From Trissonchulus latispiculum (Eukaryota > Nematoda > Enoplea > Enoplida > Ironidae), in contig JASAND010005673.1 of NCBI GenBank assembly GCA_030248195.1, positions 1-64,000 on the forward strand: 64,000 bases of DNA, read 5' to 3'. A program made the translations under genes and the position numbers. This document shows, one piece after another, positions 10,093 to 64,000 of this stretch. Position 1 is the stretch's first letter. Every line of letters starts with the position of its first letter. A model generated the notes under the pieces. That model was not told the origin of the DNA. It was given only the letters and a program-made list of their open reading frames with translations, and did not search any database.

Positions 10093-10096
<4 letters not shown>

Positions 10097-10132
<36 letters not shown>
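10097..10132. repeat. (TA)n microsatellite
   Basis: About 17 TA dinucleotides run up to the left target duplication of the next element. A similar TA run (11284-11311) lies on the other side, consistent with insertion into a TA tract. Confidence 0.9.

Positions 10133-10138
<6 letters not shown>

Positions 10139-11278: not shown

Positions 11279-11281
<3 letters not shown>
10139..11281. mobile_element. CACTAGCGTAG-type element, 8-bp TSD
   Basis: The left end is CACTAGCGTAGATACG and the right end, read inwards, is CAGTAGCGTAGGTACG, flanked by the 8-bp duplication TGTATATA (10131-10138 and 11282-11289). Two internal ~352-bp copies each end in CTTCTGGGGGG..CCCCCCAGACCCCCC (near 10687 and 11039), so there is an internal tandem duplication. 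It also holds GCGCCTTCGGCGC and ACGCCCGCGC..GCGCGGGCGT hairpins. No transposase is visible. Related copies are at 13096-13819 and 53504-53944. Confidence 0.8.
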
Positions 11282-11315
<34 letters not shown>

Positions 11316-11499
11316 CCATATATATATTTCCTTTGCTATCTACCCTTCGAAACCCTTTTCTATTCGTTTCTAGCATAACCCACTCCTTATTATAGACTTA
11401 TATAATCATATATAACTGTATTAAACATTTTAGAATTTCTCAATTCCTGTCAATGCGGGATCCTGTGTTTCTGAACTACCGATTCCAAGAGTGAAGAAC

Positions 11500-14400: not shown

Positions 14401-16141
14401 AATGCCTATTGTATTCTCATCTGAGCCTGTTTGGTTTCTCCAAACGTTATCCTTCATTGAAGAAGACTGGCCAGTGTGCACTTAGTTGGTAGACAGAAAA
14501 CTGTATTTATATACGTACTGAAAAATCGAAGGGTGTCTGTGTCTGTGTTTGGGTGTTTTAGACACCAGGTTGTCCATGCCCCGTCCGAGAGTCGTGGCCA
14601 GTACCAGTGTGTGGACTGTGGCCGCCTCTTCACCCAGTCCTCATCCCTCCGCCGTCATCGTCTCCTTCTTCATCCCTCTCCTCTTCTGCCTCGTCCGCCG
14701 CCTCCTCCTCCTCCTCCTCTCCCACCTTCCGTCCCCACCGCCATTCCTCCGTCTTCCTCCGCTGCAATTCCTCCCACGACCGCTTCTGCGTCTACGACAG
14801 GGACCTCTCTGGCTGGACGGAAGAGTCACTACAGCTGTAGTCTCTGTGGTGAGGAGAGCAGGACGTCTCGCGCCTACAGAGCGCATCTAGAATGGCATGA
14901 AGGTACATACCGCCAGGGTATTTTGAGGTTTTTTCACGGGGGATTTTCGGGGGGGGGGTGGGAGATTTGCAAAAATTGCAAAAAATGAACCAAAATTGGT
15001 ATTTTTTGGCGTAATTTACACGAAGAAACACAAAAAGTTCTCAAAAATAATTTGAGAAAAAGAAAATTTGCCTATTTTTGGCAAAAATTTGGGCCCCCAA
15101 AAAATCCCGGTGCCCCCCCCGGGTAAAATTACCCTGACCACACTGACAGTCAGTCACTTTTGTAGACAACTAGGGTTTTCTAAAGCAGGTTCAGTTGGCT
15201 TTTTCCTAGGCAAAAATTTCTGGGGGGGAAGTCTGTGGGGACACAGATTTCGGGAGGGGAAAGAAAAATTTCTCAAAAATGCTTAAAATAGCTATTTTTG
15301 CTGCTGAGTTAAAAAATTAACTATTTTTAACCTAAATGTATGCTTAACATGGCTAAAAATGCTTCAAAAAGCCTAAAAATCCGGCGAAGCCAGAAAAATT
15401 TTTCAAAATTTATTCTCAAAACCCTATTTTTCTGGGCACTTTAGAGTTCTGGGGGAGGGAAAGGCCCGAATCCTGGGGGAGCGACTCAAGTCTTGGGGGG
15501 ACCCCCCTGTAGGAAAAAGCCAGCAGGTTGCGCCTACGAGCTCTATGAGTTTGTGGTGGTTTTGTCGTTTTCGCAAAACTAATGCACTAACGGTTCTGGA
15601 GCTGTAACTGGTTTGACACTGTTTTTGTAACGTTCATAACCAGTCACAGTGCGGTATTCCTCTTGTTATAGGAAAGCGTTGCAGTAGTTTTCTTTCCTGT
15701 TGTTCTGTTGCAGGTAAGCGTCATCACTGGTGTGAGGAGTGCTCCACAGGCTTCAAGCAGAAGAGTGATCTGGATCGACACATTCGGGCCCGTCACTCTC
15801 GAGAGCCGCTGCTGCAGTGCTGTCAGTGTCAGGCCCAGTTCATTCAGCGGACCCAGCTGACGCGTCACATTGAGCGTTGTCAGGGTCTGGCTCAGGCCTT
15901 CCCCTGTGACCAGTGCAGTCTCCGACTGGCCACGGCTCCGCTCCTCTCTAAGCATCTGCGACGATTTCATCGTGTTCTGGACACTCCCAGAATCTGTGTC
16001 TATTGTGGACAGTGGTTCCGCACCCCTGACCTTCTGACCGAGCATATGTCCGCTGAACACTTTCGTCGACTCCAGTCCTCCGTCCAATCTGCTGGCACGA
16101 CTCCGACTCCGAATGGATCATCAAGTCCTCGACCTCGATAA
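11500..16141 (+). CDS. Nine-finger C2H2/C2HC zinc-finger protein (five exons)
   Basis: Predicted exons 11500-11588, 11777-11882, 14117-14250, 14562-14902 and 15714-16141 join in frame with canonical GT..AG introns to give 365 residues ending in TAA. The nine fingers start CTLC, CPYC, CDIC, CVDC, CSLC, CEEC, CCQC, CDQC and CVYC, each with 12 residues between the last Cys and first His. Fingers 1 and 7 end in Cys rather than His (C2HC). Introns cut fingers 1, 2 and 3, and joining the exons restores each one, which strongly supports the model. A proline/serine/threonine-rich linker separates fingers 4 and 5. The presumed role is sequence-specific DNA or RNA binding in the nucleus; the target is unknown and no orthologue is recognised. 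The first exon is open back to a TTTTAG acceptor at 11432-11433, so an upstream exon is possible; ATG 11500 is the first in-frame methionine. Confidence 0.8.
12244..13062. mobile_element. hAT-like MITE with TTTTTTCC subterminal repeats, intronic
   Basis: The ends TAGGGTTGG and CCATCCCTA are flanked by the perfect 8-bp duplication GTATATAC (12236-12243 and 13063-13070). Both subterminal regions are packed with GGAAAAAA/TTTTTTCCGG. It lies in intron 2 of the nine-finger gene, has no ORF of note, and is related in design to 47854-48257. Confidence 0.85.
13096..13819. mobile_element. CACTAGC-type element, intronic, inverted relative to 10139-11281
   Basis: The ends are CAGTAGTGTAGGTAC (left) and, read inwards, CACTAGCTTAGATACGG (right). 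The flanks ACTACAAC and TCTACAAC match at 7 of 8 positions. It shares with 10139-11281 the GGGTCTGGGGGGCGGAG block, the CAAAGCAGGTAAA-like stretch and the ACGCCCGCGC piece, in reverse order. Non-coding, within intron 2. Confidence 0.75.
14914..15136. mobile_element. Short MITE, CAGGGTA..TACCCTG ends
   Basis: The element begins CAGGGTATTTTGAGG and ends GGGTAAAATTACCCTG, with G-runs near each end. It lies in intron 4 of the nine-finger gene just after the exon 4 donor. A similar design is at 18106-18403. No target duplication is clear. Confidence 0.6.
15196..15522. mobile_element. TGGCTTTTTC-type MITE, intronic
   Basis: The left end TGGCTTTTTCCTAGG and right end GTAGGAAAAAGCCA are inverted, each followed by a run of at least six G or C. 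Related ends occur at 22842-23298 and 25967-26266. Non-coding; in intron 4 of the nine-finger gene. Confidence 0.65.
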
Positions 16142-16774
16142 GTCTTCCTTTTTTCTGGTGCCGGATCCAAGGCCATAACACTGATGTCTAAAAATCTATC
16201 AACAACCTTGTACAGGACAATTTAGTTTCAATCTTGTTGTTTGTAATAATGTACGTATATAACGTATACAGGGCGCCTACTATTCCTATTTTTCCTATTT
16301 TTTCCTATATTTTTCAAATATTCCTATTTTTTCCTATTTTTGCCTAAAATTCCTATATTTTCCTATTTTTTCATGAATTTTGAGAAGATTTATATCCTAT
16401 TTTAACTGTGGCAGCGAAATAAATACGGTAGAATTCTCTGTTTTGTCTGCCAACGGACAATTCTCAAAAATTTTCCGGCTCCGCCGGAATATTAGATACC
16501 GTTTTCTCTTTATTTCTGTTACGTCGATTTAATTCTCTCCTTTAAACCAGTCAATGCTTGGCGGAATTGTTTTGTTGAAGCTGTGTGTCGCTCATTCATA
16601 AGTGATACGTTATCACTACACTTTAGCATTATGTTCCTGGGGATTTTAGAACTTGGTATCTTTTGGGCAGTGATTTTTGAAACGCTGTAATTCTCACAAT
16701 TTTTGGAGTTGGAAAGTGCATATGCATTATATATATGCATCCTCTGAAAGCATGTAATCAGTATATTCCCAGAG

Positions 16775-17250
16775 ATGAAACCGGGTCACCGGGTCAGTTC
16801 GGCTCACTATTTGGACCGGGTCACCGGGCCAGGAGATCTGACCCGGTCCTGACCCGGTATTCTGGGTTAGAGGATTGATTTTGCTCAATAATTACTCAAA
16901 AACTAGTAATGGAAAAAGTATATACTGAACTCAACCGTCCATATTTGGTAAATGCTTGTAGCTGTAGAGTGTCCTCATAATATCTGTACTTCCTGTTAAG
17001 CTTGGATCTAGTTTTGAAGCTAATGGTTGCGTTGAACCTTAATTACAAAACTGAAAATTAGGCACTAATATTACTCTTAAGGAAAGCAAAACCTTTGCCT
17101 AACTTCATATTTTAAACGCCAAAAATTTCCAAAATGATTAAAGAACACTCACAGCATCCCAATATAATTTTTAATATTTCCAAGCTTAAACCTGAATTTT
17201 CGAAAATACCGGGTCAGGGGTCGACCGGGTCACCGGGTCAGTAAACAGTG
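16775..17250. repeat. CCGGGTCA repeat-bounded segment
   Basis: Copies of ACCGGGTCACCGGGTCAG stand at both edges (near 16780 and 17225), with inverted GACCCGGT copies near 16848-16860. The arrangement resembles another nonautonomous element with short subterminal motifs, but complete terminal repeats and a target duplication could not be assigned. Confidence 0.5.
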
Positions 17251-19749: not shown

Positions 19750-22120
19750 ACATGCATTATGCTTTGGATGTAGTAAAACCTTGGTCCTCCAATTAGAGTG
19801 TTTTGAGAGTGACATATTTTGCTGTTGTGTCTTGCAGTTGATTTTGTGTTGTTGAAAAAAAGGATCCTTGGAGTAGTTCGGGTTGGTTCAGTGGAATAAG
19901 GTCATTATTGAGTCGTAGGCGCTCATGCCGTTTTCTGTATTTCACCTCGCTAATACTACTGCAGCAGTAACCAGTCACTTATTCACAAGGTGTGCAAAGG
20001 AATCGGGGGAAAATATCGAAGTCCGTTACTTGAATACCCAAAGCAGCAGCTTTCTACAGATGTCCTTTATGCGAATACACGCTCTTCAGCAAATGTGAAG
20101 CATATTGGTTAATCTGGCCGTCCGGGTATTGCATAAAAACTGGTCATACTGTGCTTAGTTGGTAGTCGTATGCAAGAAGGTGTTAAATGGAAGAGAATAT
20201 GCCGACGTTTTGTTAGCGGAGCAACCCTGATTGGCAAGAAAAGGCAAAAAATAAATTGCGAAGTGCATATAAGCTGTCTATTCGGTGGACTGAATTTGTA
20301 GAAACAGTTGTTACAATGTTACTTCTTAAGCATGTCTGTCAAAATCGTAACAGTGCGATAGATTTCATACCTTATCCTGAGTTATTCCCCCCAGTATCCC
20401 CTTTTCGTCATACTTTAGAAGGAGCGCCGTCTCTTCCCGTGAAATCGTGAAATAACTTATCGCCCACTATATCTGACCATAAGGGATGAGCAAAAAATGA
20501 AACCGTTAACTACAGTTTCATTCAAAACCCTATTTATTCGAGCACTTTTGGGCAGTGTTTTTTATTTCGCCGACGGCTTATGTGTCATGTTACACATCTC
20601 GCCAAAAATTTTTGCTATTTTTCAGAAAAAAGTGTGTAACTACCTAAAAATTTCAAATTTTCTCCCGTTTTCTTTACCACGTATGTATATATATAGGGGT
20701 GCTGACTGAAATCCTGATCCGTGGGGGACCCCCACCTTCCTCTCCTAATAGCAAGGTCCAGCAAACCAGCGCATGCGCTTGTTTCATGGGACATTATTCA
20801 TGCAAATAAGAGCCGTTGAAAATTGCCAGCACTGTTCTAAAAATAGAACAGTGGGAAAAATTAATTTTAAAAAAACTGAAAGCGCGGTCCTGTTTGGACA
20901 TAAAATCTTGCTCCTTTCATGCTGTATTATATTACAAAATTTCCAAAATTCTAAGTGTTAGAAATTTCAAAATTTCAGTGTTTTGTCCCCAATCTGAACG
21001 GATTGCCAATCCTTTTTCATTTAACTACTGATTTCTACTGGTTTTACTACTTTCATAAATTGCTTCAGATCGTAGGAGACCGCCCGACCGACTATACGTT
21101 CGTAGCAGTGTCATGCTGGGCTTTTTCTAGACGAAAAATGTGGGGGGACCCAAAAAGTGGGTGATCCAAAGTGGTTTAACATTGTCAAAAATGCTGTAAC
21201 AAATAGATTGTTTTTACAATTATATACTGCTATAACTAAGTGTTCAAAAATTGAGTTTGGGTACCAAAACATACGATTTTAGACCAAAAAAAATTTGAAA
21301 ATTTGGATCAAACATCCTTAAAATTTGGCTTTGTCTGGGCACCTTATAGGGTGGGGGGAAGTCCAAAGTCCTTAGTGGGGGAAATCCCAAAACAACAAAA
21401 ATATATCAGGCAAAAATATATATAAAAAATATAAGGCTCTCTGTGATGCACTGTTTGATGTTAGACGTGCAGTTGCACTTGTGTGTTAAGTTTGTTAACT
21501 GTTTGTTTAATTAAATTGAATTGAATATTTTTATGCACGTAGAAACGCAAAAGGTTCTCAACAATGATATGATTTAAGCTAAAAATAGCCAGTTTTATGA
21601 CAAAAACTCTGGCGAAGCTGGCAAATTTTTGAAAGTCTGCCTGTTTTTGGCAAAAGTTTGGGCCCCCAAAAAATCCCGGGGTGAGGTCAATTTCCGGGAG
21701 GGGCCCTGGACTCCTGTGTAAAAAAAACTCCCATGCACTAAACACAATATAACATTAATTTCACAGTCATAGACATCCTACAAAGGATTTGATGATATAA
21801 GGGGATCAGAAGAAAAATTCCAAGGAGGAATGAATCAATTTTTTTCTTCTGGCACCCAAAAGGGGAAGGGTTCGTATCCCCAACACACCCATGGTCTTGA
21901 TACACAACGGCGCCACGTGACTGAGTTTTTAAGTGGAGGGGCGCCCCATACTCTTTGGGCCCCCCCACTCGACCTCTTCCCGCTAAAATTCCCTAAAACA
22001 AGTACCCTGTTAATGTGTGTTTTTTGTTTAGGGATTAAAAAAATTTCTTCATAGTTATGTAAGCAAGTCTGATATAATGTGGAAGCCTGCTAGCATGTCT
22101 ACGTAGTAAGTGGCAACTTA
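19750..22120. other. Intergenic stretch between the two zinc-finger genes
   Basis: No supported gene. The part 21115-21400 starts like the GGGCTTTTTCTAG MITEs and carries G-runs, and 21590-21735 is another G-run repeat piece. The many short open frames are A+T-rich and show no family features. Confidence 0.5.
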
Positions 22121-22141
22121 CAGGGCCACAAAAAGGTCGTG

Positions 22142-25100
22142 ATGATGTGCAGCCCCTTTGACGAGGCGGCGGGCATTGCGGAGAGCGACAACGCCGCGGC
22201 CATGCTAGACTTCCTCCTGATGGATCAGAACCCGGAGAATGGGATGGCTCTCTCTCCCTCGCCCTCTCTGGGGGGTCTGGACAGGACGAGGACGGGCGAA
22301 GGAACCTCCTCCTCCTCCTCTATCCTGGATGAATTCTTCTCTCCCGACGGAGGAGGACTGAGCGGATCACTACTCGCTCAGCAACAGCTACTCTATCCCC
22401 CATATCCTGGGACCGATGCCACTTCGCCCAACAACTATCACCACAACAGCAACGGTCCTCCACCCTACTCAGGTCCTGAGAGTGGCCTTCTGTCCGTCGC
22501 CTGTTCCTACTGTCACATGACCTTCCCGTCACGTGACCTCCTAGGGCGTCATCTCATCCAATATCACGGACAGACTCCACCACCTCCTCCTCAGCCTCCC
22601 GGTTCGAGACTCCCTCTTCCTCAGTCCATGCGTCAGACCCCTTCCCAATGCCCGGATCCTGATAAACCCTATAAGTGTACTCAGTGTAAGTCGCCTTCAC
22701 TGTTCTCTTCGATTGTTTCTGGTTTCTGATCATTTGAATTTGACAATCTCTTCACTTGTCCTTTCAAATATACATAGGATGTGTGCTTTAATCATTAATA
22801 ATCATTAATCATAGTTTATCAACAGTTCAGCAGTAGTATATTGGGCTTTTTCTAGGCGAAAAAGTGGGGGTGGGGAGAGGGCCCCCCCCAACTAGTGAGG
22901 GGGGAACCCAAAAGTGGGGGGAATCTAAAATGGTCTAAAATCGCTAATAATGTAGCAAAAATAGCCTGTTTTCTACATATACTGCTATAACTATGCTTAG
23001 AAGTGCTCAAAAATTGAGTTTGAGTACCAAAATAGACGATTTTGAGCAAAAAATTGCGGCGAAGCCGGAAAATTTTTAGCAAAAAATTGCGGCGAAGCCG
23101 GAAAATTTTTGAAATTTTTGACTAAAAATCCTTAAAATTTGGCATTTTCTGGGCACCTTATGGTGAGTGGGGGGGAAGCCCAAAAAGTGGGGGTGGGGCC
23201 GAGTGGGGGGGGGAAGGGATCGAGTGGGGGGACCCAAAAAGTGGAGGGGGGCGCCCCCGCCCCCCCCCCCAGTAAAAAAAGCCCAGTAAAAAAGCCCAGG
23301 TATATCCATTATTTCTACGGTTCTTGATGGATTGTAGAAACGCACCGGGGCCTGGATTCTGGCCCTGTCCCAACTGAGGACTAAATTGAAGGGAATTTTG
23401 TAATTGACGGGAGATTTTTAATCAAAATTGACTGGTCTGTTGTTGTAACAAATTGGAGTTAAAGTGTTAGAAAATGTTGGCTCTCTTGATTGGATTGGAT
23501 GACTCAGAGGTGCTAATAACAGGGTACACCTACAGAGTTTTGATTTTTTAACTTTTCAAAAGGCGTTAAAAATAGCATGCATATATATACAGCACTGTGA
23601 ATGATGTGATGTTTGTTTCGGTTTCAGGCGTGGCCTCATTCAAGAGCAAGGGCGGTCTGGCCAGTCATGCCATCATTCATTCGGACGAGAAGCCCTTTGG
23701 CTGCTGTGTCTGTCAGTCTCGATACAAGCGGAAAACCTCTCTGAAATCTCATCTCCAGCGTCACATCCGAGAGTGTGACATCACCCCGGCTCAGCGCTAC
23801 TCTCTCGGGTGGCTCCTGGAAAATTTCAATGTCGTCAAGCCCAATGTTGCCCTGGATGACTATCTCAAGTCTGTACCTGTCCCCGTGGGATTGCAACAAC
23901 AACAGCAACAGCCACAGCAATCTCTTAGTGGACCAGGGATTGGTACGGGGGCCAATCAGTCAGTCTATCCCAATCCTGCTCCTGTTTTGGGGAGAGGTGG
24001 TTCCTCCTCAGTGTCCTCCTGGCCCCTGTCCACCTCCACTCCCTCCCCCTCTCCCTCCCTTTCCTCCTCCAATCCCCACTCTGGCCCCTTCGACTGGCCC
24101 GCCTCCGCCTCTCCTCCCTTCTCACCCCCGGCGCCACAGCAGTCCGGAGGTTCCGCTCCCATGGGACATCTCGGGGCGCCGTCCTCTGCAGTCCAAAATG
24201 GATATTATTGGAATGGGTCCAATGAGAGTGGTGCCCTTGGTTCCATGAGTCATGGTTCTGTCCCGACTGCTCCTGTGGGAATGGCACCTGGTGGGGTTAA
24301 CCCACCGCCGCCTTCTGGCTATGCCTATTCTCCTCACTATGGTAATGACACCATGACAGCAGCTCAGTATTCCTCCGCCTATCCTTCGAACGGGGCTGGC
24401 TACTCCACTTCCGCCCCTTCCCTGGGCAGAAGTGGGGTCTGGAATTCCGCAGCCTCCTATGCCGGTCCTTCTCCCAGTTCTCAGGTCCTTCGGCCGTGTG
24501 GTGACCCCTCTTCTTCCACTCTGAACTGTTATTCTGGTCAGCCATACTCCCATCCCCATCAACCTCAGACTTCAGTCCCTTCATCTACTTCATATTCCAC
24601 GCAGTGTTACCAGCAGGAGTCTTATTATCCATCTCAGTCACTCCAGAACCATCAAGTTCAGCACAATAATTCGCAGTCGACCTCTACCTATTCTACTTAT
24701 CCTGGCGTTCCCACCGGTTATAATCTAAATGGATGCAGTTCGACCAGTAGTCAATATCCTTCCATGGGCCAATTGAATCAATCTCTGACTGGGGGCTATC
24801 CTAGTCCTACGTTGGGATCACTGCCAGGGCAGACGCAGCCGCCTCTTCGATCCAATTCCTTGACTGAGAATGGGAGTGGTCCGCCGCCAGTGGAGTGCAT
24901 TGTGGTGGGCGGTCGAGCCCTGGAGGATTTGGATGAGGAGGGTCGATGCTGGCTTCGAGAGGTCCGTCATCAGGACTCCATCTCCTCCTCTTCCTTGACC
25001 CTCTCCCCGCCTCCTCCTCCCACCTCCACCACCACCACTGCACTGAACACTCCTGAGGACCACAGCAGAGGCACGACGACTCCTTGTGACGCTGTGGCTC

Positions 25101-25312
25101 CACCCCTCCGCTACTCAACGGAAGATCACAGTACTACCTCCTCTTTTACTCAGATCCCGACAGATCCTGCACAGCCAACGGAAGTTGTCACCATTCTTGA
25201 CGATGATGATGATGATGAGGTTAATGGTGATATCATGTCCAGTAGTAGTCTTGTTGCCCCTTTGGCGGAGAGTGCCATAGTTAAGATGGAGAATGCAACG
25301 GCCTTCCTATGA
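22142..25312 (+). CDS. Three-finger C2H2 protein with long disordered tail
   Basis: Two exons, 22142-22685 and 23628-25312, join at GT 22686 and AG 23627. The junction codon restores the second Cys of finger 2 (KCTQC followed by VASFKSKGG), giving 742 residues. The N-terminus has a hydrophobic/acidic stretch (MLDFLLMDQ). Finger 1 is CSYC..HLIQYH near residues 121-142; fingers 2 and 3 (CTQC..HAIIH, CVC..HLQRH) are adjacent, followed by REC. Residues from about 250 are S/P/Q/G/Y-rich and probably disordered. Near the C-terminus VVTILDDDDDDE looks like a SUMO-interacting motif and VKME like a SUMO acceptor site. A nuclear transcriptional role is likely; no specific orthologue is recognised. The frame stays open upstream to an acceptor-like TTACAG (ending 22123), so another 5' exon is possible. 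Confidence 0.82.
22842..23298. mobile_element. TGGGCTTTTTC-type MITE in the intron of the three-finger gene
   Basis: The left end is TGGGCTTTTTCTAGG; the right end AGTAAAAAAGCCCA occurs twice in tandem. The flanks AGTATAT and GGTATAT agree at 6 of 7 positions. The sub-ends are G/C-run rich (GTGGGGGTGGGGAG), and an internal AAAAAATTGCGGCGAAGC unit is duplicated near 23047 and 23083. Non-coding. Confidence 0.7.
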
Positions 25313-25486
25313 CCATCTCCTCTCTAGTTCATTAAACTTACTCTTGAGAGAGAGAACTATTCAGGTGCTGTATATACATTGGAAACAATTGTTAGTCTTT
25401 GTATTATTGTTGTTGTTGTTGTTGCTTGCGTGAGTGATATGTTGTGTCTTGCTTTTTATCCATTCAGTTCATCTTGTTTGAAGAAA

Positions 25487-25492
25487 AATAAA
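25487..25492 (+). promoter_or_regulatory. Candidate polyadenylation signal
   Basis: AATAAA lies 175 bp after the stop codon of the three-finger gene, a plausible 3' UTR length. Confidence 0.5.
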
Positions 25493-25504
25493 GAAGGTGC
25501 TCAG

Positions 25505-25765
25505 TGTGGATTTCTTAGGTTAGGGAGGGCCCCCCCGGGTCTAAGGGTGGGGCGAAACTTTTTGGAAAATGTTTAAAAATAGCTTTTTTTGCTGCTGAGC
25601 TAAAAAGTACATAAATTTTAACCTAAATTTAAGCTTACAATAGCTAAAAAGACCTAAGTATCCGACGAAGCCGGAAAATTTTTTCCCGGCACTTTTGGGT
25701 GCTGTAGGGGGAGGGTCCGAATCCTGTCCACCCCCACACCCCTCTCCCCCTGTAGGGAAAAGCCA
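25505..25765. mobile_element. G/C-run MITE-like segment downstream of the three-finger gene
   Basis: The right edge GTAGGGAAAAGCCA matches the TGGCTTTTTC-type ends, and the interior repeats the GCTGCTGAG, AACCTAAATTTAAGC and CGAAGCCGGAAAATTT phrases of 15196-15522. The left edge is less clear. Confidence 0.5.
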
Positions 25766-25966
25766 GAGTTTCTGCGTTGGCTAAAATGCTTTCCTTAAAG
25801 TTTTACCATGTTACGTAACTCTAAGAACTCTGACTAGACTATTGACATCAGACTCCACAAAGTTCAGTTGCAGCAGCAGTTTCCAAAGCCTTTGGTTTTC
25901 CCCGCTCCAAGTTTTTCTGGCTACACTAGTGCTATCACAGAGCGTGACAATGCATGAACGGTTTTC

Positions 25967-26266
25967 TGGCATTTTTTAGGGTTTTGAAAGTGGGGGAGGG
26001 AGCGAGTCCAAGGGATAAAATACCAAAATTTTTAGCGAAAAATTAGCATTTTTTACGTAAACACACAAAGCTTTTTAAGCATAAAATTAACTTATAAGTC
26101 CATAAATTAGCTAAAAATTCAGAAAATTTTTGAAAATTTTACCTCAAAAACTTAATTTTTTGACACTTTTGGGCGACCCCCAAAAAGTGGGGGGGGCTTG
26201 CCGAAAAGTGGAGGGATGAAAGTGGGGAGCTGCCAAAAGTGGGGGCCCTCCCACTAAAAAATGCCA
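25967..26266. mobile_element. TGGCATTTTTTAG MITE, perfect 7-bp TSD
   Basis: Inverted ends TGGCATTTTTTAG and CTAAAAAATGCCA are flanked by the perfect 7-bp repeat GGTTTTC (25960-25966 and 26267-26273). It is about 300 bp, with G-runs and AAAGTGGGGG phrases at both sides. Non-coding. Confidence 0.8.
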
Positions 26267-26740
26267 GGTTTTCTTCGTGTTTGGGTAATTCTGGACGTTA
26301 ATTAGTTAGTTAGTTAGTTAAGACTTTAATTTTTAGATTTTTAGATTTTCTCTGGCCAAATCTCGGAAAAATATTTAAATGGTTTTAAATATATATACGT
26401 ACTTTTCAAAATTTGTATATCGGTAATCATTTTTCCCTCGCCAAAATGTGTGATGAACACGACGTGCTGCGCAAGTGGTCATTGTTTGTTCACACATTTT
26501 TATATATTTTATCAAATTTTATATTTTCCTTCACAGGGAAGGGAAGATTGTCGATTTGTGACCTGTGCTTTTCTTTGTTGAGTTTACCTGTGTTGATCAT
26601 GCAAGCTGCCGTATAAAATTTCACTTTGATTATTGTGTATTACGTATGTGCTGTTCATCATGTTATCATGTACAAAACCGATGAACCGATATTGATTGTC
26701 TTTGGCTCTCTCATGATTATCAAACTCGAAGTGTCAGAAC

Positions 26741-27024
26741 TAAAGATGAGCATCGGATTTTTATTCTTGTCCGAATATCTGCATGTTCAAGAAAATTTTT
26801 CGATTACACAGTTAAAACTTCAGTTTTTCCTGCAAATTTTTCGCTGCGCTACAAATCCTATCATCAACCCAAACTTGGTTTCGCTAAATATTTTCAGAAA
26901 ACTATTGCAAAAATATTCAGAATGCTTCGAAATTTTTGTCTACAATTTGCTGATTTTTTACAGTTTTATGAAAATTTGTTTTTCTCAAATCGGATACTAT
27001 CCGGATATCCGGTGCCTATCACTA
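26741..27024. mobile_element. hAT-like MITE, 284 bp
   Basis: The ends TAAAGATGAGCATCGGAT and (inwards from the right) TAGTGATAGGCACCGGAT are similar. The flanks GTCAGAAC and GTCAAAAC match at 7 of 8 bases, an hAT-style 8-bp duplication. The 139-codon open frame over this region is therefore not taken as a gene. Confidence 0.7.
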
Positions 27025-27611
27025 GTCAAAACGTGTTATGATTGACTCAGGTGAAAGTTGAAATTTGTGGGTATCTATAACTAACATGCTTTGTACTATA
27101 TACGTAATTTGTGTACAGAAATTGCTAGGCTTGTAAAATATTTTGTGGACGTTATTAGTTTAAATGTCTTCGAAATTATATTCTATTGCTCAAAGGTGTT
27201 GGAGTTTGGTTCAGTTTGTTGTTAATGTATACTTTTTGTTGTACAATAATCAGTCGTGTAATTATAAACATAAAACTTCCTACTAGAGAGTGACTGGCTA
27301 AGAGTGTATCTTATCCTTGACCATTTCGGCCGGAGTGTTGGACGAATGCGAAACAATCCACAATGGGAAATCTGTTTTTAATTACTGTTACGTATTTCTT
27401 TGTTTCGTTTTTACGTTTTATGGGTTAGAATTGGTAAAAATTTTACTTGTCTCTCCTGCCATTTTGTAACGTTTTTTATGAAAATGTTCCTGTTATCTGT
27501 TTGCAGATTTAGTTCTAGTTAGTTGTAGTTAGTTATTCTGAATAGTTGCTGTGTAGTGTAGTTTTTCTTGGTTTCTTTCCTTCTTTCTATGTTGCTTTTA
27601 TTGCTGTCTAC

Positions 27612-28452
27612 CTGGGGCCCGTTGAATAAAACTTTCAATAATAGGTCAATAGGTCCAATAGGCAATAGGTAAATAGGCTGAGAGCGTTGCATAAAACTAA
27701 TTTTCAATTACAATAGGCTATTTTTCCAATTTAATAGGCGATTTCGATAGGCGAGCGTTGCATAAAACTCGAGCAATTTTAATACCTATTAAATTTCACC
27801 TATAGAAACGGTAAGATTTTCGAATTATCAAAGAAGATAATTTGTTTCCGATTATATGTGCATTTATGAGCTTTTCAGCACAATTTACTTTTACAAACTA
27901 GATGAAAAATAGAAACACAGAAAGTCTCATGCATGTCTAAGATCGTTTAGATAAAAACATAGAGTTAAATTTCACCTGAAAAGTGAATTTAATTTTAAAA
28001 TTTCACATGAAAATTTATATACTTAATGAAGAGCATACAAAAGTCTTGGAAAAAATTTAATAAGCTGTAGCTGTCGCAAATCTAGCCAAAACAAACGATT
28101 TCTTGTCAAACCTTATTAGGTTTTATCATTTAAGTATATATTTCGTTTTTTCTTAGAATTCTATTTTTTGTTAATATTCTTTGCTAGCATGATTATTTTC
28201 TTGATGTTTCGTTATGGCAGTTGTTGTTTGAAGATCTACTGCATCAATGTATAGCGCAACTATACATTATGTAAAGGGCAAAATGAACTATTTTAATAGG
28301 TAACCTATTGGTTTGGTTGTCAATAGGTATGAAAAAGGAGCCTATGACAAATAGTGTTTTATGCAACGCATTTTAATACTCCCTATTGCCTATTGCCCCA
28401 AATTGCCTATTGTTATTTACTTATGAAATTGTTTTTATGCAACGGGGCCCAG
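27612..28452. mobile_element. MITE with CTGGG(G)CCCGTTG ends and AATAGG repeats
   Basis: The left end is CTGGGGCCCGTTGAATAAAA and the right end, inwards, CTGGGCCCCGTTGCATAAAA. Each side carries many AATAGG/CCTATT units and GCGTTGCATAAAACT phrases. No transposase or clear target duplication. Confidence 0.75.
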
Positions 28453-33009: not shown

Positions 33010-50226
<17,217 letters not shown>

Positions 50227-55201: not shown

Positions 55202-56595
55202 ATAGGTGTAACGGAGATTTGGGGTGGGGGAGGCTCCCCCCCAACATTTTCTGGAGGGGGCCCCCTCTGGCGACCCCCCCGACCCCCCCCAGGACCCCCC
55301 CAACCCTCCCCCAAAAAAATTTTCATTTTTTATGCCAAAAATCGCATTTTCAGCCGTTTCTAATGATGAAAAACGTCAAACCATAAAGTAATTTTAACAT
55401 TAGACAGTGGTTTTAAACTCAAAAACTTGATTGCCAACATGTTTCCAAGTCCAAAATAAGGTCAATATTGAGTCATAAGATCAATAATACAGTTAAAAAC
55501 GTGTATTTCTCATAATAATAAACAGTTTAAGCCAAAAATTTGGACATTTTTGAAAATTTTTTCAAAATTTACCCTAAAAATATGCAAGTTTTGGCCATTT
55601 TTCGCGCCTTCGGCGCGACTAGCCCCCCCCCCCCAGTTGGGGGGGGGGCCGTCCCCCCCCCAAAAAGTTTTGGGGGAGGGTTGAAAAAAGGCTTGGGGGC
55701 TAACCATAGGTGTACCAGGCTACAGTTTGCCCCCTGTGAGACCCCCCCCCACGGAGAGGCCAGACCCCCCTCCCCCCCTCCCCGACCTCAACTACTCCCC
55801 CCCCCAAGCCGAGCTCAAGCCCCCCTCCCCCCCCTAAAATTGGGTCCAAACCAGGTAAGAAATGCAAAATTTTTGAAAAAATTTTTTGCAATTTCTGAAA
55901 ATTTTTGAAAAAAATTCGAAAAAATGGCTATAAATCACATATAAAGAGCTAAAGATGGTTATTTATAGCAATTAAAAGGTAATATACGCAATTATAAACC
56001 ACAATCTGGGCTAATTTAGGCATATTTTAGCACAAATTTGTCAATTTTCAAGCCCCCTTTTCGCATACGAAAACTATCGACAGAAGCTTTTGAGTATGTT
56101 TAATGTACTGTGCATCGAAAAAGGAGCATTTTTAGCCAAAAAAACTTGGGTACAGTTTAGGGGGGGTCCCCCTCCCCCAAATTTCGGATTTGGGTGGGGT
56201 CCCCCGAGCCAAATTTGGACCTTCTACTCCCCCCCCCAACCCAAACAGGTGGTACACCTATGGGGCTAACGGGCTTGCGGGCTTAAGCCCTAACCCCCCC
56301 CCACCTTACACCTATGACTATACATCTCCATTTTATTTATTTAATCTTTTCAAAAGTTTGCATGACGGATTTTTTTCCAATTTCAAAAAATTCTTCAACT
56401 TCTGGGGGCTCTGCCCCCCAGACCCCCCGTGTGCTTCTTGTGTAAATTCTCCATGCTTTGCTTCACTCACGGGATATAGTTGTTTTCCAATTGGCAAGTG
56501 AACTAGCCTTTCCATACACAATATTAATTTTCTTGTCAAAATATTTTGTTCCTTGAAAAAGCAAATTTTTACCCCCCCCCCGGAAAAATTTGGTT
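55202..56595. other. G/C-run MITE mosaic without genes
   Basis: Fragments of CATAGGTGTAA elements (55201, 55706, 56258, 56312), the TGGCAATCAA..CATGTT phrase inverted at 55430, and a CGCGCC TTC GGCGCG hairpin (55603-55617). CTTCTGGGGGCT..AGCCCCC-type blocks (56398) lie in long C/G runs. Open frames in it are proline/glycine translations of these runs. Confidence 0.6.
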
Positions 56596-56597
56596 AC

Positions 56598-57080
56598 CCC
56601 CCCCCAGAAAAATTTTTCAGCGGGCCCCCCCCTTTTCAAAATCCTGGATCCGCCACTGGTCCACCATTTTTGCCTGACCTCCCTCCATAGGTGTAATTGG
56701 GGGGGGGGGTGCGGGTGGAACCCGTAACGTAACCCCCCCCCAGCCATTTTTCCAAACCCCCAATTAAACATGTTGGCAATCAAGTTTTCGAGTTTAAATA
56801 CACTGTCTAATGTTAAAATTAGTTAATGATTTCATGTTTTTCGACATTAGCAATGGCTGAAAATGCGATTTTGGCATAAAAATTGAAAAATTTTTTGGGG
56901 GAGGTTTGGGGGGGGGGGGATCGTGGGGGGTTTGGGAGGTCTGAAAAGGGGGCTCCCCCAAAATTGCGGGGGTGGAGCCTCCCTTACCCCAAATCCCCGT
57001 TACACCTATGCCTCCCTCCCTACTTTTTTCAAACCACCACTTTTTCGATAGCCACACACACACCTATGGGGAGGGGGGGG
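56598..57080. repeat. Segmental duplication, copy B
   Basis: Counterpart of 51078-51552, including the CATAGGTGTAA element at 56686-57010 with the same CCTCCCTC target repeats. The differences are mainly lengths of G and C runs. Confidence 0.85.
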
Positions 57081-59430
57081 GGGTTGAAAATTGGGGAGGG
57101 AAAGTAAAAAAATCTGGGACGGGTATGGGGGGGGGGGAGGGTTGAAAATTGGGGGTGGGAAATTAAAAAATCTGGGAGGGGTAAAGTTGGTCGAAAATTT
57201 TGGGGGGGTCCCCTGCCCTAGCCCCAACCCCTGAAACTATGGTTGTCAATATAGGTTGGCTGGGCTGGGCAAAAAATCTGGGGGGGGAGGTTCCGACGGA
57301 GGGTGGAGGACCCCCTAAATTTTTGATTTTATGCCATTTTTGGCCACTTTTTGGCCAAAAATTGGGGGGTAACAAAAATCTGGGGGGGTCGCGAAAATTT
57401 GTCATCTTGGGGGGGTGATCGATCGAATCTATCCGAACCGAAATCGATCCCAAACCGGGATGCAGAGGACCTCACGTCCCCGAATACAACGCCAAAGTTC
57501 TGTCCTCAAGGATTCCGTGTACAGCAAAGGAACACAATATGTAATGGAATTAATAAAATAAAATGTTAAAAGTAATCTAAAATCAGCTTTAAAAGAGGTT
57601 TCAAATGATCAAATCACCAGGATGAATTCTCATGCCATGGAACTGTGAAGAAGAGCGAAGGTCATCAATATGGAATGTAACTGTCAAATAATGTCCAAGC
57701 AATAATTGTATAGATTATCATGTTTGTTTAGCTAGAGTTGCCAGTATTCAGTAGAAATCAAGAAATTCACCAATAGGGTTCATGGTTCACATTCAATTAA
57801 AACATTAATACTAGTCTTAAACACGATTTTAAGTTTAATTAAATTCTACTAACGCGTGACTACTAATGATACTAATCCAGGAAAGGTGAAGAGGGATACT
57901 TCACCCCTAATCCCTTCGGTTTATCATCCCTTTAGTGAATGGAGTTGCTACCTCCACACGAAGATAACAATCGACAACTAAACTAAACTTAGGTGAATTG
58001 GTGAGTATCTCCCATAATAGTCAAGTATAGCCCTCCCCGTCAAGATAATCTAATCACTAACGCTCACATGTTAGTCAGCAGGAAGTCATAAACCTAAAAA
58101 CACAAAGTTTATGTGCATAGTTAAGGCAAAAATTAGTCGTAAAATTGCCTATAAAATGGAAATGTACATTTAAAACAACGAATATTGGAAGATGGTTCGA
58201 TATTGGGTGCAAAATGGCTAAGTACGTAGTTAGGTACGGTTAAATAGTAATAATTATACGTTAGATAGGTAGTAATTAGTTAATTTTAATATTTTTGGTC
58301 GAAAAATGACTTGGGCTTATATGAAAGAGAATTTGATTCTGATTCGAAAAATCCAAACCCGACTTTTCAACTCCCAATAATAAGAAAGTTATGAACGAAA
58401 ATGTTTTTATAAGATTACTTTTCGTTTCGTAATCTTATCACTCCAAAAAGGAGTGTACTAAAATTGGTTTTCTTTGCCTTAAAGTTAAGGCAAACCTTTT
58501 TCCTTTTTTATTGTCTGGGAGGTTGTCTACCTCCCAGTCTGCACCTGAGTCAGGTGTTATTCCCCCCACCTCTTTTCTTTCTTCTCTCTCTGCTAGGCCT
58601 CTTTCTTCTGGGCCTAGCAGTTGTCCTCGCTTGAACTTTTGGCCGAGGACAAGGCCAACAAAGAAAACGGAAAGGAAATAGTGGAATAAGCCCAAGACAT
58701 TGTATTTAGAGGGGGCTTAGCTCCCTCAATGATAATTAATATATTAATGTAAGTAGCTAGGTAAGGGTAGATAAGTACGTAGATTATGATGATACAATTT
58801 TTAACTTATAGAAAATTGTACATTTTGTGTAATAATCAAATAAAGTTGTGAAATTTCACGAAAATTCCCCTTTGGTTATGTTTATGTGTTAAAGAAAGTT
58901 TCGCAAAATTTCGCCAAGTTTCGGCACCCAAAATATATCAAAAATGGGTCAGTTGGGGGGCAATAAATCCAAAATCTCATTAATTTCCACCCCCAACGAC
59001 CAGCTGGGTCAGCCCGCTGCAGCGCAGCACACGTAAAAGGTGGCAAGCTTCTAGAAGGTTCTAGAATCTTCTAGAAGCTTTGCCTTAGAATCAAAGAAGA
59101 AGCGAGCTCCAGGTCTCGCTAATGACCTGTCACCGAGCTGTCAGCAAAACTGTCAGCTCGGTCCAAAATTTTATTTTCAAATCAGTGTTCGTTTGAGAGC
59201 AACCGAAAGCGGTTGCTTCCCCCTCCCCTTTATGCGCTCTCCAGTGCAGTTGGTACTGCATGGGGGTTAAAGCGCATTTCCCCGGTTAGGTGAAAAGCAT
59301 AGGACTTTTCTGGCCTTCGGGCCAGAAAAGATTTTGAGATTTATACAACGAACACTCTCAAATTAGGGCCATATAGGTGCATTATACCTGGCCAAGAAAC
59401 CAACTTGAGAAACACAAACCCTAGGATTTA

Positions 59431-59655
59431 AAGGCCCCTTTTTGGCCATTATTTTTATTGTAATATTTGAGGCCTTTAGGCCATTTTTTATTCTATGTCT
59501 TTGGGGCCTTCGGGCCATTTTTTTATATACCTTTTTAAGGCCAATGGGCCATTTTTCATACACATTTTTGGGCCGAAGAGCCCCAGTTCTCACTCAACAT
59601 TCTGGGCCCAAGGCCATATTTTAGTTATGATAGCATGCGTGGGCTTTAGGCCACT
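59431..59655. repeat. GGCC-hairpin series, ~34-bp spacing
   Basis: Seven small GGCC..GGCC hairpins start near 59433, 59470, 59503, 59536, 59569, 59603 and 59639, so spacing is 33-37 bp. Loops vary (TTTA, TTCG, AATG, GAAGA) and T-rich spacers follow. An eighth, larger one is at 59305-59330. Confidence 0.75.
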
Positions 59656-61789
59656 TTTATTTTGTTTTATTTCATTTTCTTCATTCTTAATTATTATTTT
59701 ATTATTTTACATAAAGGGACAGCTCATGTAAACCCCTCCTGTTCGATGGAGGTCTTGAGAATTGCCCCTATTTCTGTTTTTCTGTTTTTGTGCCGACACC
59801 CTCTATATACCGAGGTTTGCTGACCTCCACCTCCCATTATTTTTACTCATTTATTGTGTTATCGTTTAGTTGTACTTTTCTGGTCAAGCCACGACCAATT
59901 TCTATCAGTTTTTATCAAGGTCCTTTTGACCTAAATTTGGGGTTTAAAGTAGAATACGGGATATTTAAGTGGGGACCCAATTCCTAAGTTTGAGTTAGAG
60001 GGTCCCTTTGCTACGACCCTAATTTTTATTGAGTTAATTAATAAGAATACTTACCCCACAGCCGGCAACTAGGAGTTGCCGGCCATATTGTTTTAATCTC
60101 AGGCTTTGCTAAGCCTTAAAAAATTATTGTTTGTGTTCTGTAATTGTTTGTCGTAGGTCGGTATCTAAAACTAATAGGATATTAAAACATGAGAAGAACT
60201 TTTAAACCAATCCCTAAAAGTAATCACCTATTTTAAATTATTTTAATAATCAAGCCTTTCACGGGGAATGACCGGCTTCCCCATTAATTAACTTAATTGT
60301 TGTCAGTAGCTTTGTGTAGTAGTAATAGTTTTGTTTAGTAATGATTGCTTGGCAATCATTACTCACACGGCTTTCCCAAAAATTCAAAATTCTCAAAGTT
60401 GCCAAAATTCCGCGCTATTAACTGAGTTTTAGATACCTAAAACTCACAACAAATTCCCGTTTAAATTTAGTTAATTTGATACATATGAAGTAGTAGCTAG
60501 CTGTATAGGATAATTAGTATTGGTGAGAATTAGCTTCCATCTACATTGTTTGTAATCATGTTTGTTTTTAGGATTGGTTAGATAAGTACTTACCTAAGTG
60601 AGTGTGTGTATGTGTATGTATGAATTGTATGAATGGCATTGTATTGTTCTTTATGACTGTATGTGCGTTGACTCGCGGAAACTCCTTCTGTCTGATGAAG
60701 GTTGTGAGCATCGCTGGAGTGATCAAGACTCAGATATTAAGCAGGAATGAAGTGTATGCGTGATTTGCATGAATGATTCCATTTCTAACAAAGTGAGTGT
60801 TTCTAGTCTGAATGTCGCATAAGTAAGGTACGAGTGGTTAGTAATTTAGGTATTGTATAAATGTGGCATAATTGTGTTAATTAACAAATAGAATTACGTA
60901 TCGCAATACTAGTTTACCTAGGACCTTTGTATGCGTGTTTTATGTAATGTAGTTGTCAATCGTAATTGAACAGGTAACCGTCTAAGTGGTTAAGGATTCT
61001 CTGTGTGCATGATCCGTATGAAGTGCCGAAACTATATCAGAACTCCTATAGTACGCAGGAAAAAAAGCAGTAGCCAGTAATGCAATTTTAGGATATGTAT
61101 ATCTGGAAGTGCGTGAGTACGTGGTTATGTAGGAAATCTAGGTTTAAGCACAGTTTAGCAAATATGCAAATGAGGTTAAGGTTATAGGACCTAGAGTCAC
61201 GGGACTCCATATTGGGTCCTCATCAGTTGAATCAGGATGTCCTCGATTCGTCCGCGTAAGTCACTCTTTGCTAAGAGTGCGGACGAATCGCAAGAAAGGA
61301 ATCCACCAGATGGTCAGTCTCGCTGCCAAATTAATACCAAAACAGGTTGTAATAAGCATAGGTTGCAATCATAGTTGTTATAATTGTGTTTCCGATGTCG
61401 TGACACACTGCTATTGCCATTTCTAATCGAACTAGTCCTATCTGACCCATGTTTCATTTCTAATAATGACCGCCACCGCGGCCTAACACCATTCCATGTC
61501 GGTGTTCACGTTCAAAAGCAAAACTAATCAAACTCCAGTACGTAAAGGTCAGCAAGGTTAAAAAATCAGCTTTGCTCATTTGTGATTAATACAAAGCTCA
61601 TCCATGCTAGTTATCCTCAAATGGCAATAATCAGTTTCAACATTCTGACAACCTTAACTAATATTAAGCAATAGTTGATGATATATTTGAAATAAACCAA
61701 TCAACCGCTAATTACGTAAGTATTATGGATAGGGCACCAGAACCATCTTCTAATAAGGGCTAAAATCGCCAGTTTTGTGAAACTATCTA

Positions 61790-62110
61790 GTTTTCAACGT
61801 CTAACACTCATAACAAAGGGAGTTGTTACCTTCCCTTAGTAGAACCCAATAGAGAACAGAAGTTCTACACTAAATTATGACGTTTTTAGTAAATTTATGC
61901 GTTAACTCTCTTTTAACTACTAATGTTTGTTAAGAGCAGGAAGTTGTTACCTTCCTCACTTAAACTCGCGAAATTAAAAGTTCTACATTCAAGTATTGTG
62001 TCCTGGTCAAACTCGCGTGTAAACTGTTTTCTAATTAAGTAACTCTTATCAAAAGTAGGAAGTTGTTACCTTCCTTGCTAGGACCCGGAAAACAAAAGGT
62101 CCTAAACTTG
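61790..62110. repeat. ~120-bp diverged tandem units with paired hairpins
   Basis: Three units, each with a GTTGTTAC-loop hairpin (61816, 61938, 62057; spacing about 120) followed by a second hairpin. In unit 1 the second stem is GTAGAAC/GTTCTAC (61839-61868); in unit 3 it is TAGGACC/GGTCCTA (62079-62104). Sequence has diverged but pairing is kept. Confidence 0.75.
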
Positions 62111-64000
62111 GCCACCTCAACTAAATTAATGTTTCTTGTGTGAGTCGAATAAACGGAAACCTATCTACTGTCAAAGGACCCAAAAGTATGTCAAATTCGA
62201 GTAATAGGTTTTAATCGTACAGAAGCAGACTGTACAAAGAGAAATCAAGTTGGAATCACAGTTTCACATCAAAGGCACAATTTCTTGCACAAGAACGCAA
62301 GAAATTGTCTTGAAAATTATCGTTTTACTTAAGAACAATTTTAAATATCGCGATCTTACTCAAACCATCAAAATTTGTGTTAATCCGCTTGAATCGCAAG
62401 CTTTCACAACAATTTCGATTTGTACGAGTTTATTTCAAGTTCAGAAAGCCAGAATGTGAGTAATGGTTGCTGGGTTCGAATCCCGCACCTATAACTTGTA
62501 TTAATGGGTTTTAACCCATTTGATTCAGGTGCGGAAGTCCCGACTGATCCTGCCGGAATCACACTTAGAACGTCAGTATTCAGAGCCACAGTGGCATTAT
62601 TCTTGGTCAGATATTTGATTTGATTGCGATAGTCAGTCCGAAGAAGGACATAATTAGTGGATCATTAGTTGGATTGGAATCAGCCGATTAAGGTACATTG
62701 AGGATCAGAATAGACCTTTTGAGGAACGGTTAAGGCAGTGACAATTTGGAAGTGCACCGGATCATTTGTGGGAACCTAAAACCTAACAACGAAAACCTAA
62801 CCTTGTTCTTGACTATTTTAAAGTAACTCTTATCTTATCAACCTAAAAGATGAATCTTTTCGAGCTTATCATCAGTCTCATTGAAGGGGTTGTTACCCCC
62901 TGCCCCTGGGCCTAATCTATTCAGTATTCTTCAAATCGATCGGAATTAGAGAATTTAAAGAAGAGATTAAATTAAACATAACTTGTACTAACACCCATAA
63001 ACGGACCAGGAATTCCCCCAACCGGACCCCCCTTGTGTTTGACCCTTGGCAACCGTATAGCATCCGAAAGTGCTATTGTTACTAGCATTTCGGGCTCACC
63101 CAAAGACCGGAAACTTTGTACTACTAATCCCTTTAATTTAGTTAACTTAAATTGTTTAGTAGCTTATCTTATTGATATTGTTTTGTCCTTTAGTAAGGAG
63201 GACGGTAGAAGAGTTATAATCTAATCACACGAACACAAGCATATAGGGATTGCACGATAGAGTTTGGTAATAGGTTAATAACTTGCTAGTCAGTTAGTCA
63301 AGAAAGGAAAGAAAGAGGAATAGAGTAGAATTGAGTTTAGCCATCGGAACCTTGTCCCTAACAACAACAATTAGTAATCTGGGTATATTAGATACTGGCA
63401 ACTCTGGCAAACTATTATTGTCTGTCTAATTGTTTACGCAGTGTATAGTTTGTGATTTATAACCTGTTTTATCATTTATACACACTATAATAATCCTGTT
63501 CCCTGTTTGTTATCATAATTATTATTGCCAATATCACCATAGCTATTGTCATTAAACTGTTGTGTCCTACTACTGAATCTACTGACTAGGACATAAGGAT
63601 CGATCAAGATTTGGATTCACAGTCCCTGTACAAGTAAGTGTTTAAATTGAACCCTTGGTCCCGACAAAGACATCATCATCATCGTACTAGAATCTTGATT
63701 TGGCAATCAAGATTCTCAATCAGTGTTCTTTGATACAGACCTGATTCACCTATTCAGAAACGGCAAGTGTCGACCCCGCTTGCTACTGATATCCCTTGGA
63801 TCCCCATCCTCATCAAACGAACTCACGCCTAGACCCCATCCAGGTTGACCGCAAGGAATCTTTGGTTCTGGACAAATCACCTTCCGAAGATCCTGTGCCT
63901 AAGTTTATCCTCACCGATAAACGCGTCAGCCTTCCGTGTACTCGAAGTGGTTGCTATCCCAAGAGTCAGTAGTCGTGACAGACTGCAGCGGAATTTGGAA

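Follow-up and report, generated by a model that had tools for sequence, protein, structure and literature searches.

A chain of hairpins in the nematode Trissonchulus latispiculum as the likely long terminal repeat of a giant Burro-like retroelement

Plant TR-GAG elements are long terminal repeat (LTR) elements that have kept gag, by definition their only protein domain, and LARD elements have kept long non-coding parts and are defined by a non-coding interior; both are thought to need enzymes provided in trans. In Burro, a group of giant Gypsy-like elements of planarians, env lies between gag and pol within a single frame (PMC6431247). NADAR enzymes, in turn, are described in PMC11543638 and PMC11125620 as reversing guanine ADP-ribosylation in the systems studied. 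Here we report on a 64,000-nucleotide stretch of DNA from the nematode Trissonchulus latispiculum (the window: bases 1-64000 of the 66,771-bp contig C3854, JASAND010005673.1, assembly GCA_030248195.1), at the end of which an original prediction had described a chain of different hairpins with no open reading frame (ORF). The best explanation as a whole, which we consider likely, is that positions 57540-64025 are an LTR copy that is devoid of interior and belongs to a giant, Burro-like LTR retroelement of ca. 27 kb, in which no reverse transcriptase (RT), RNase H or integrase was found. Searches were carried out over the 734-Mb assembly, which comprises 21,732 contigs.

The identification as an LTR retroelement is based on dozens of copies with fixed ends, TG...CA termini, flanking sites resembling a primer-binding site (PBS) and a polypurine tract (PPT), and adjoining gag/protease ORFs. 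Copy alignments, from which BLAST rows of less than 100-150 bases were dropped, defined a unit of 6,486 bp on the + strand, TGTAATGG...CTTCATTACA. A 2-kb query from the region rendered 2,870 first-look candidates in the genome, 40 of which were scored; 31 of the 39 places other than the window matched over at least 1,900 bases, and the identity of the main piece was 85-92% in all 39. A 3' query rendered 1,316 candidates, 40 of which were scored, with the match ending at 64025-64029 in 36 of the 39 other copies, and the start was located at 57536-57548 in seven of the eight other aligned copies (at 57796 in C12697). The left boundary had originally been placed at 57411; the true edge is at 57540, and the bases between the two are a flank absent from other copies. 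The region does run off the window, as had been stated, but ends shortly beyond it, at 64025 (...TTCATTACA). The suggestion that further copies and boundaries be sought in the assembly proved fruitful, the ends at 57540 and 64025 being fixed among the copies, and the proposal of a hairpin-rich selfish element is supported in the form of the LTR of a multicopy retroelement.

The PBS-like site, TTTTTGGAGCCCCCAGTGAGGA, starts at the 14th base inside the element, and the PPT-like site, GTGGAGGT, lies before the 3' LTR, both being common to the copies; the 22-mer core of the former was found at 98 sites genome-wide, against none for a reversed control. Contig C14649 carries one complete element of 27.2 kb, with two direct LTR copies (ca. 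21618-28119 and ca. 42265-48779) separated by 14.1 kb, the 5' LTR being followed by CGGTAAACTATAGTTTTTGGAGCCCCCAGTGAGG (PBS-like) and the 3' LTR preceded by ...TTTATTTTGTGGAGGT (PPT-like), with a nearly identical left flank at the copy in C5232. Contig C16077 carries a nearly complete element of a divergent lineage, and TG...CA ends together with terminal direct repeats occur in the LTR pairs of both contigs. Further copies of the element to which the window LTR belongs are found in C3544 and C5626, and the copy in C5779, with TATT on both sides, looks like a solo LTR. Dispersed copies with such ends, PBS- and PPT-like sites and adjoining gag/protease ORFs are at odds with the nuclear DNA of organellar origin that had also been proposed. 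Given this anatomy and the copies, and with no Rfam match up to E=1 in 56000-64000 and no tRNA gene found in the window, we assign practically no probability to organellar DNA in the nucleus or to a free-standing structured RNA gene; the large structured RNA of the original prediction could at most be the leader and trailer of the retroelement RNA, and the data do not distinguish pairing in RNA from pairing in DNA.

Many non-identical perfect hairpins are indeed present: 57541-64029 contains 21 stems of at least 8 bp, whereas five dinucleotide shuffles average 4.2, and stems of at least 10 bp number 10 in the LTR, against 0.0 in three shuffles. The densest part is 57541-59700, with 12 stems against 0.6 in shuffles, and a looser score, used without shuffle control, gave 44 short-loop hairpins in the LTR. 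The absence of ORFs was likewise confirmed, the longest stop-to-stop frames within the LTR being of 92 amino acids (aa). The claim that hairpin density far exceeds that of the neighbours holds only in part: the excess is clustered and eight other 6.5-kb stretches of the window also contain 8-15 stems, against 3.0-7.6 in shuffles; no excess was found in 64030-66771 (2 against 2.6). Folding in 120-nt windows gave mean z values of -0.86 (+) and -0.96 (-) in the LTR (n=107), against -0.50 (+) and -0.45 (-) in the rest of the window (n=173), the difference between the two having p=0.075 on the plus strand and p=0.023 on the minus strand; strong folding on the + strand (z < -3) is concentrated at ca. 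58380-58680, 58920-59400, 60000-60120 and 61200-61320. Two of the nested hairpins originally named, 61244-61290 and 62483-62534, are there, and a third, 63128-63165, was not recovered at the thresholds used.

Comparison of the copies indicates that the hairpins are under constraint, several of them by compensatory change. Stems of the window copy, compared with four other copies at three score cut-offs, have changed at 0.014-0.032 per site, against 0.100-0.105 in the 30-nt flanks, and at no cut-off did any of 370 circular shifts reach a value as low as that of the stems. In copies that had not been used to define the stems, the values were 0.003-0.046 in stems and 0.094-0.134 in flanks (six comparisons). 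Stem bases can be aligned to the C16077 LTR in 63% of cases, against 27% of the other LTR bases; in these alignments, distant pieces from C16077 and C14649 that were not colinear, or that deviated from the diagonal by over 1500 bases, were dropped, and the slice of the C16077 5' LTR ended at 266406 (true end, 266417). Among 139 stem pairs compared with C16077, 112 are unchanged, 10 (in eight hairpins) have changed on both sides and still pair, 16 are otherwise changed and one falls in a gap. As a control, complementary pairs outside the stems, taken at comparable distances, had on average 2.7 both-sided changes per 139 and never more than 9 in 1000 draws, figures to be read bearing in mind that stem pairs are not independent and that two lineages were compared. 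An LTR at C14649:53897-57911 was first taken as a third lineage; it is of the C16077 lineage (83.8% identical), and compensatory changes therefore count for two lineages, not three. The DNA downstream of it contains no frame longer than 285 aa and no match to the ORF pieces of the element.

Conserved stems and compensatory changes above the control support the selection for intramolecular pairing that had been suggested. They argue against the hairpins being functionless by-products, arisen in rapidly evolving LTRs through microhomology events or through small palindromes inserted one within another, a very improbable explanation that would account for the excess of perfect stems in other window stretches and for three loops (61823, 61944 and 62063) spaced as if tandemly duplicated, but not for stems slower than their own flanks. 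Some observations do tell against selection on pairing. Loops are also slow (0.044-0.062 per site), which implies that part of the constraint is on sequence; in blocks aligned to C16077, stems differ by 0.146 and the rest by 0.260, a weaker contrast than among close copies; some hairpins have been lost in one lineage (58473 in C13148 and C5779, the inner 61262 and the 59244 stems in C16077); and folding of the LTR over its whole length is only slightly better than that of its surroundings. In addition, one-sided unique changes, counted without the 58473 and inner 61262 stems, leave G-U in 11 cases and A-C in 12. RNA of the + strand is not favoured over pairing at the DNA level by this count, since G-U does not exceed A-C. 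The hairpins might hence act as DNA, in cruciforms or in single-stranded cDNA (strand transfer, integration, transcription-factor palindromes), which we consider unlikely though deserving serious attention: both strands fold similarly, and a heat-shock element, itself a DNA site, accounts for the largest palindrome (59045-59080). It is less easily reconciled with short-loop hairpins (TTCG, TTGTTAC) scattered over 6 kb, nor with a TTGTTAC loop kept on differing stems, which recognition of RNA by a protein would fit better.

The heat-shock element, TTCTAGAAGGTTCTAGAATCTTCTAGAA, has a single match in the window and none in 100 shuffles, one mismatch being allowed. It is unchanged in nine of nine copies, one of them with a change just outside, and in the C16077 lineage (both C16077 LTRs and that at C14649:53897-57911) the six units are kept and spacer bases have changed, a pattern that fits a factor-binding site rather than a stem. 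The conserved block in which it lies, 58940-59215, is probably the core promoter and would be heat-responsive. As for the loop TTGTTAC, which is common to hairpins with differing stems, a sixth instance at 57945 reads TTGCTAC in the window copy. These loops are kept in most copies, with TTGTCAC at 62890 in two of them and that at 57945 lost in C12697; those at 61823, 61944 and 62063, with a spacing of ca. 120 bp, may be an old tandem repeat.

The interiors of the C14649 and C16077 elements define the order LTR, PBS-like site, ORF1 (gag, an envelope-like part and protease; ca. 2,560 aa), NADAR ORF, third ORF, PPT-like site and LTR. In C14649, ORF1 is a 2,555-aa frame in which a Pfam scan detected Retrotrans_gag (5e-8), CCHC and then an aspartic protease (3e-9); by eye, a furin-like site (REKR), a fusion-peptide-like stretch and a membrane segment lie between gag and protease, with the protease and another gag-like stretch closing the frame. 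The NADAR ORF, of 537 aa, matches Pfam NADAR at 9e-14 (52.4 bits against a cut-off of 35.1; 41.3 bits in the second lineage) and, weakly, the solved NADAR 8bau_A (E=0.003), and the third ORF, of 490 aa, has no convincing match. The scan covered 440 of the 537 aa of the NADAR ORF and frames of at least 440 aa, with C16077 ORF3 left out. In C16077, with LTRs at 259858-266417 and from 280036 onward (92.5% and 96.7% identical in two blocks), the PBS at 266430 is followed by gag and protease in a frame of 2,564 aa or more, a NADAR match (2e-10; protein only 56-57% identical to that of C14649) and a 447-aa ORF that is 48% identical to C14649 ORF3. No match to RT, RNase H or integrase was found in either interior by Pfam scan and inspection of frames, and the remaining frames in the C14649 interior are of at most 163 aa on the plus strand and 176 aa on the minus strand. 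The ratio of non-synonymous to synonymous substitutions (dN/dS) in ORF1 between the two contigs is 0.08 overall, 0.02 in the gag core and 0.03 in the protease, dS being high (1.7 overall); as judged from these substitutions, the pol-less ORF1 is under purifying selection. For NADAR and ORF3, divergence is too great to allow an overall dN/dS.

A search with the NADAR ORF gave 98 match rows (96 of 631 candidates scored) that are 51-100% identical and mostly lie in frames of ca. 430-600 aa. The PBS 22-mer and a NADAR match coincide in 21 contigs, on the same strand in 20 of them, and in 16 of these 20 the spacing is 7.6-9.1 kb, with NADAR identities of 52-100%. Against a set of 5.8 billion sequences, the NADAR protein gave 4464 candidates, none with E<=0.001, and no outside relatives were reached.

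Frames bearing pol are also present in the genome. A search for the integrase zinc domain gave 17 rows in frames of 3,340-3,370 aa (150 of 4,512 candidates scored), and the one read among them, in C10887:31000-47000, is a 3,361-aa frame with gag, an envelope-like part, two protease stretches, RVT_1 (3e-40), RNase H, integrase and an OTU-like protease domain. Its gag is 35% identical to that of C14649, and its envelope-like part is 30% identical (E=5e-110) and occupies the same position in the frame. In both elements, as in Burro, the envelope-like part is located between gag and protease without a break in the frame. The polyprotein of C10887 also contains RT, RNase H and integrase, which were not found in that of C14649 and C16077, and the element of the latter two is therefore a Burro-like relative, not an autonomous Burro. 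It could be argued that the pol-less layout is an effect of assembly or of the small number of copies examined, and that autonomous elements with this LTR exist in intact form, the element being an ordinary autonomous Burro-like one. Interiors were read in only two elements, that of C14649 with a degraded 5' LTR start and LTRs only 91% identical, the very long pol-bearing frames are numerous (17 of the 150 scored integrase rows), and PBS and NADAR are 10-20 kb apart in four of the 20 contigs. We nonetheless judge this improbable, given that the same layout is found in a lineage with so diverged a NADAR, that the PBS-NADAR spacing stays within 7.6-9.1 kb in the other 16 contigs, that the pol-less ORF1 is under purifying selection, and that the single pol-bearing element read has no LTR similarity in 16 kb. 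In those 16 kb of C10887 there was no similarity to the window LTR, no LTR pair and no heat-shock pattern. In C2767, the same PBS 22-mer is followed by a gag-only frame of 673 aa (gag 28% identical).

Against the identification of the window LTR as part of a pol-less Burro-like element stand several further results. In the window copy, only four bases (CGGT) match the continuation into the interior before the sequence diverges, and no target-site duplication was found when the flanks were compared; on these grounds the copy has probably lost its interior. The identity of the C14649 LTR pair implies that this copy is old, recombinant or mis-assembled, and its 5' LTR was trimmed to start at 21640, its first bases being a poly-A stretch. 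The envelope-like part was assigned by inspection, with no Pfam match in C14649 or C10887. At least one stop is read through in 27 of the 98 NADAR rows, mostly a single TAG and many at ca. 52-64% identity, which might reflect decay or a recurrent TAG that is read through. PBS and NADAR are 10-20 kb apart in the four contigs mentioned, and no partner with the same LTR was found in the PBS contigs read (C3544, C5626 and C2767).

A mechanism can be proposed on these bases. Heat-shock factor would drive transcription from the block containing the heat-shock element, with a start at or below it, and most of the LTR would become a leader of ca. 4.8 kb (R-U5). The hairpins would act as RNA structures in the leader and in the 3' U3, their most likely role lying in the selective packaging of the RNA by the Gag of the element itself, or in translation past the long leader. 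RT and integrase would be supplied in trans by pol-bearing Burro-like relatives, and the NADAR protein would remove ADP-ribose put on nucleic acid by the host, by which it may counter host modification. A further reading, which we consider somewhat less likely than not, is that of a retrovirus-like element persisting over a long time as a satellite lineage, which would have its own capsid, envelope-like protein, protease and an ADP-ribose-stripping NADAR but no copying enzymes, would borrow RT and integrase from Burro-like relatives, would have diversified (NADAR 51-100%), and whose 6.5-kb LTR would be an RNA hairpin array under a heat-shock promoter marking the RNA for the borrowed machinery.

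Table 1. Features of the LTR region in the window (a dot, no strand assigned)
Feature	Position	Strand	Remarks
Left flank	57411..57539	.	Outside the element; not common to other copies
LTR	57540..64000	+	Last 25 bases, to 64025, beyond the window; ends TGTAATG...CATTACA; no ORF (copy alignments, flanks, ORFs)
LTR 5' end TGTAATG	57540..57546	+	Inverted repeat of the CATTACA end at 64019-64025 (read directly)
Hairpin, 10-bp stem	58409..58438	.	A-T pair replaced by G-C in C13148, C5779 and the C16077 lineage
Hairpin, 9-bp stem	58515..58537	.	Identical in 9/9 copies; compensated pairs 58521-58531 and 58523-58529 in the C16077 lineage
Two adjoining hairpins, 58590-58620 and 58621-58652	58590..58652	.	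Stems kept in 9/9 copies; unalignable in the C16077 lineage
Most conserved LTR block	58940..59215	+	Mean pairwise identity 98% (250-bp bin starting at 59040)
Perfect heat-shock element, six alternating TTC/GAA units	59049..59076	+	Accounts for the 59045-59080 palindrome
Hairpin, 9-bp stem	59132..59162	.	C-G to T-A compensated (59134-59160)
Hairpin	59197..59218	.	C16077 lineage: one compensated pair (59198-59217), two broken pairs
Hairpin, 11-bp stem, TTCG loop	59305..59330	.	Identical in 9/9 copies
Hairpin, 10-bp stem	60061..60083	.	Identical in 9/9 copies; inner pair open in the C16077 lineage
Hairpin, 12-bp stem	60337..60363	.	Paired in 9/9 copies; two compensated pairs in C16077
Hairpin CCTTC..GAAGG	60684..60701	.	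Related second copy at 59735-59752; one compensated pair in C16077
Hairpin, 12-bp outer stem	61244..61290	.	Kept in all 8 copies reaching it; C16077 lineage: T-A to C-G compensated, inner 7-bp stem lost
Five hairpins with common 7-nt loop TTGTTAC	61816..63090	+	Loops at 61823 (G-T pair needed), 61944, 62063, 62890 and 63076
Hairpin, 12-bp stem	62277..62308	.	11/12 pairs in C13148 and C5779; compensated pair 62285-62300 in C16077
Nested hairpin	62483..62534	.	Identical in all 7 copies reaching it; block 86-87% identical between the two lineages
Hairpin, 12-bp stem	63689..63716	.	Kept in the 6 copies reaching it, window copy included

Other features were observed in the window and elsewhere in the genome. 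A poly-A-like low-quality stretch opens the 5' LTR of C14649 (21500-21640) and suggests an assembly problem. In C16323, LTR copies at 9773-13873 (+) and 14047-17162 (-), in opposite orientation, 99.6% identical and 173 bp apart, form a large palindrome that is either real or an assembly artefact, and C19445:19332-40678 contains two LTR ends, each followed by the PBS, with one NADAR ORF between them, in an LTR-interior-LTR-interior arrangement. The gag-only frame of C2767 (local positions 576-2737) directly follows the PBS, and the preceding stretch of ca. 97 bp, TGTAACGAAT...ATTCGTTACA, is perhaps a very short LTR; no second copy of it was found in 9.9 kb. Tandem arrays with units of 145-296 bp are located in the window at 154-866, 1114-1665, 2010-2433, 41804-42329 and 45663-46444, at least three of which (1114, 2010 and 41804) share words such as TTTCATTTG and TACCA. 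Beyond the window, a tRNA-like sequence (by eye, minus strand) lies between long inverted repeats at 65325-65397 of the contig. Mitochondrial-type sequence is present at C17523:27583-31176, in a 37-kb contig, with ND1-like frames recognised by eye and a piece of COX1 that is broken by stops and frame changes, reads best under the invertebrate code and has an arthropod-like look.

LTRs are usually treated as short control regions, and the finding of a 6.5-kb LTR with conserved, compensating helices means that covariation can be used to test for structure in giant retroelements. Sequence scanning also calls for caution, since a chain of hairpins with no ORF may, in genomes of this kind, be an LTR. 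If true genome-wide, a pol-less lineage with gag, envelope-like part and protease would constitute a natural helper-satellite system among retrovirus-like elements, and also a case of NADAR recruited beside an envelope-like gene. In a literature search no pol-less gag-env-protease-NADAR element was recognised among the matches listed, which is no proof of absence; as far as these matches tell, that layout is new, and so is a long LTR combining covarying hairpins with a heat-shock element.

The element resembles Burro, as described in PMC6431247, section 7 of which does not describe LTR structure, in its giant size, the in-frame position of the envelope-like part between gag and protease and the extra accessory domains. 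It differs from Burro in that no RT, RNase H or integrase was found, in an ORF1 that goes no further than protease and second gag-like stretch, and in carrying NADAR. A Gypsy lineage of Ectocarpus (PMC12477816) similarly bears a NADAR domain of the YbiA family; here, NADAR is a separate ORF and the element is pol-less, with an envelope-like part. Ogre of legumes is also large, with LTRs of up to 6.5 kb, but has an interior of 11-13 kb with one or two extra ORFs, and neither NADAR nor loss of pol is mentioned in the portion of PMC6431247 dealing with it. ONSEN and Caenorhabditis Helitrons likewise carry heat-shock elements or show a heat response, the latter being, for the element here, a prediction from sequence. 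Finally, unlike LARD, the interior contains frames of 2,555, 537 and 490 aa, and unlike TR-GAG, gag is accompanied by protease and NADAR domains; besides these, the envelope-like part and the third ORF have been kept, the structured part is the LTR, and the host is not a plant.

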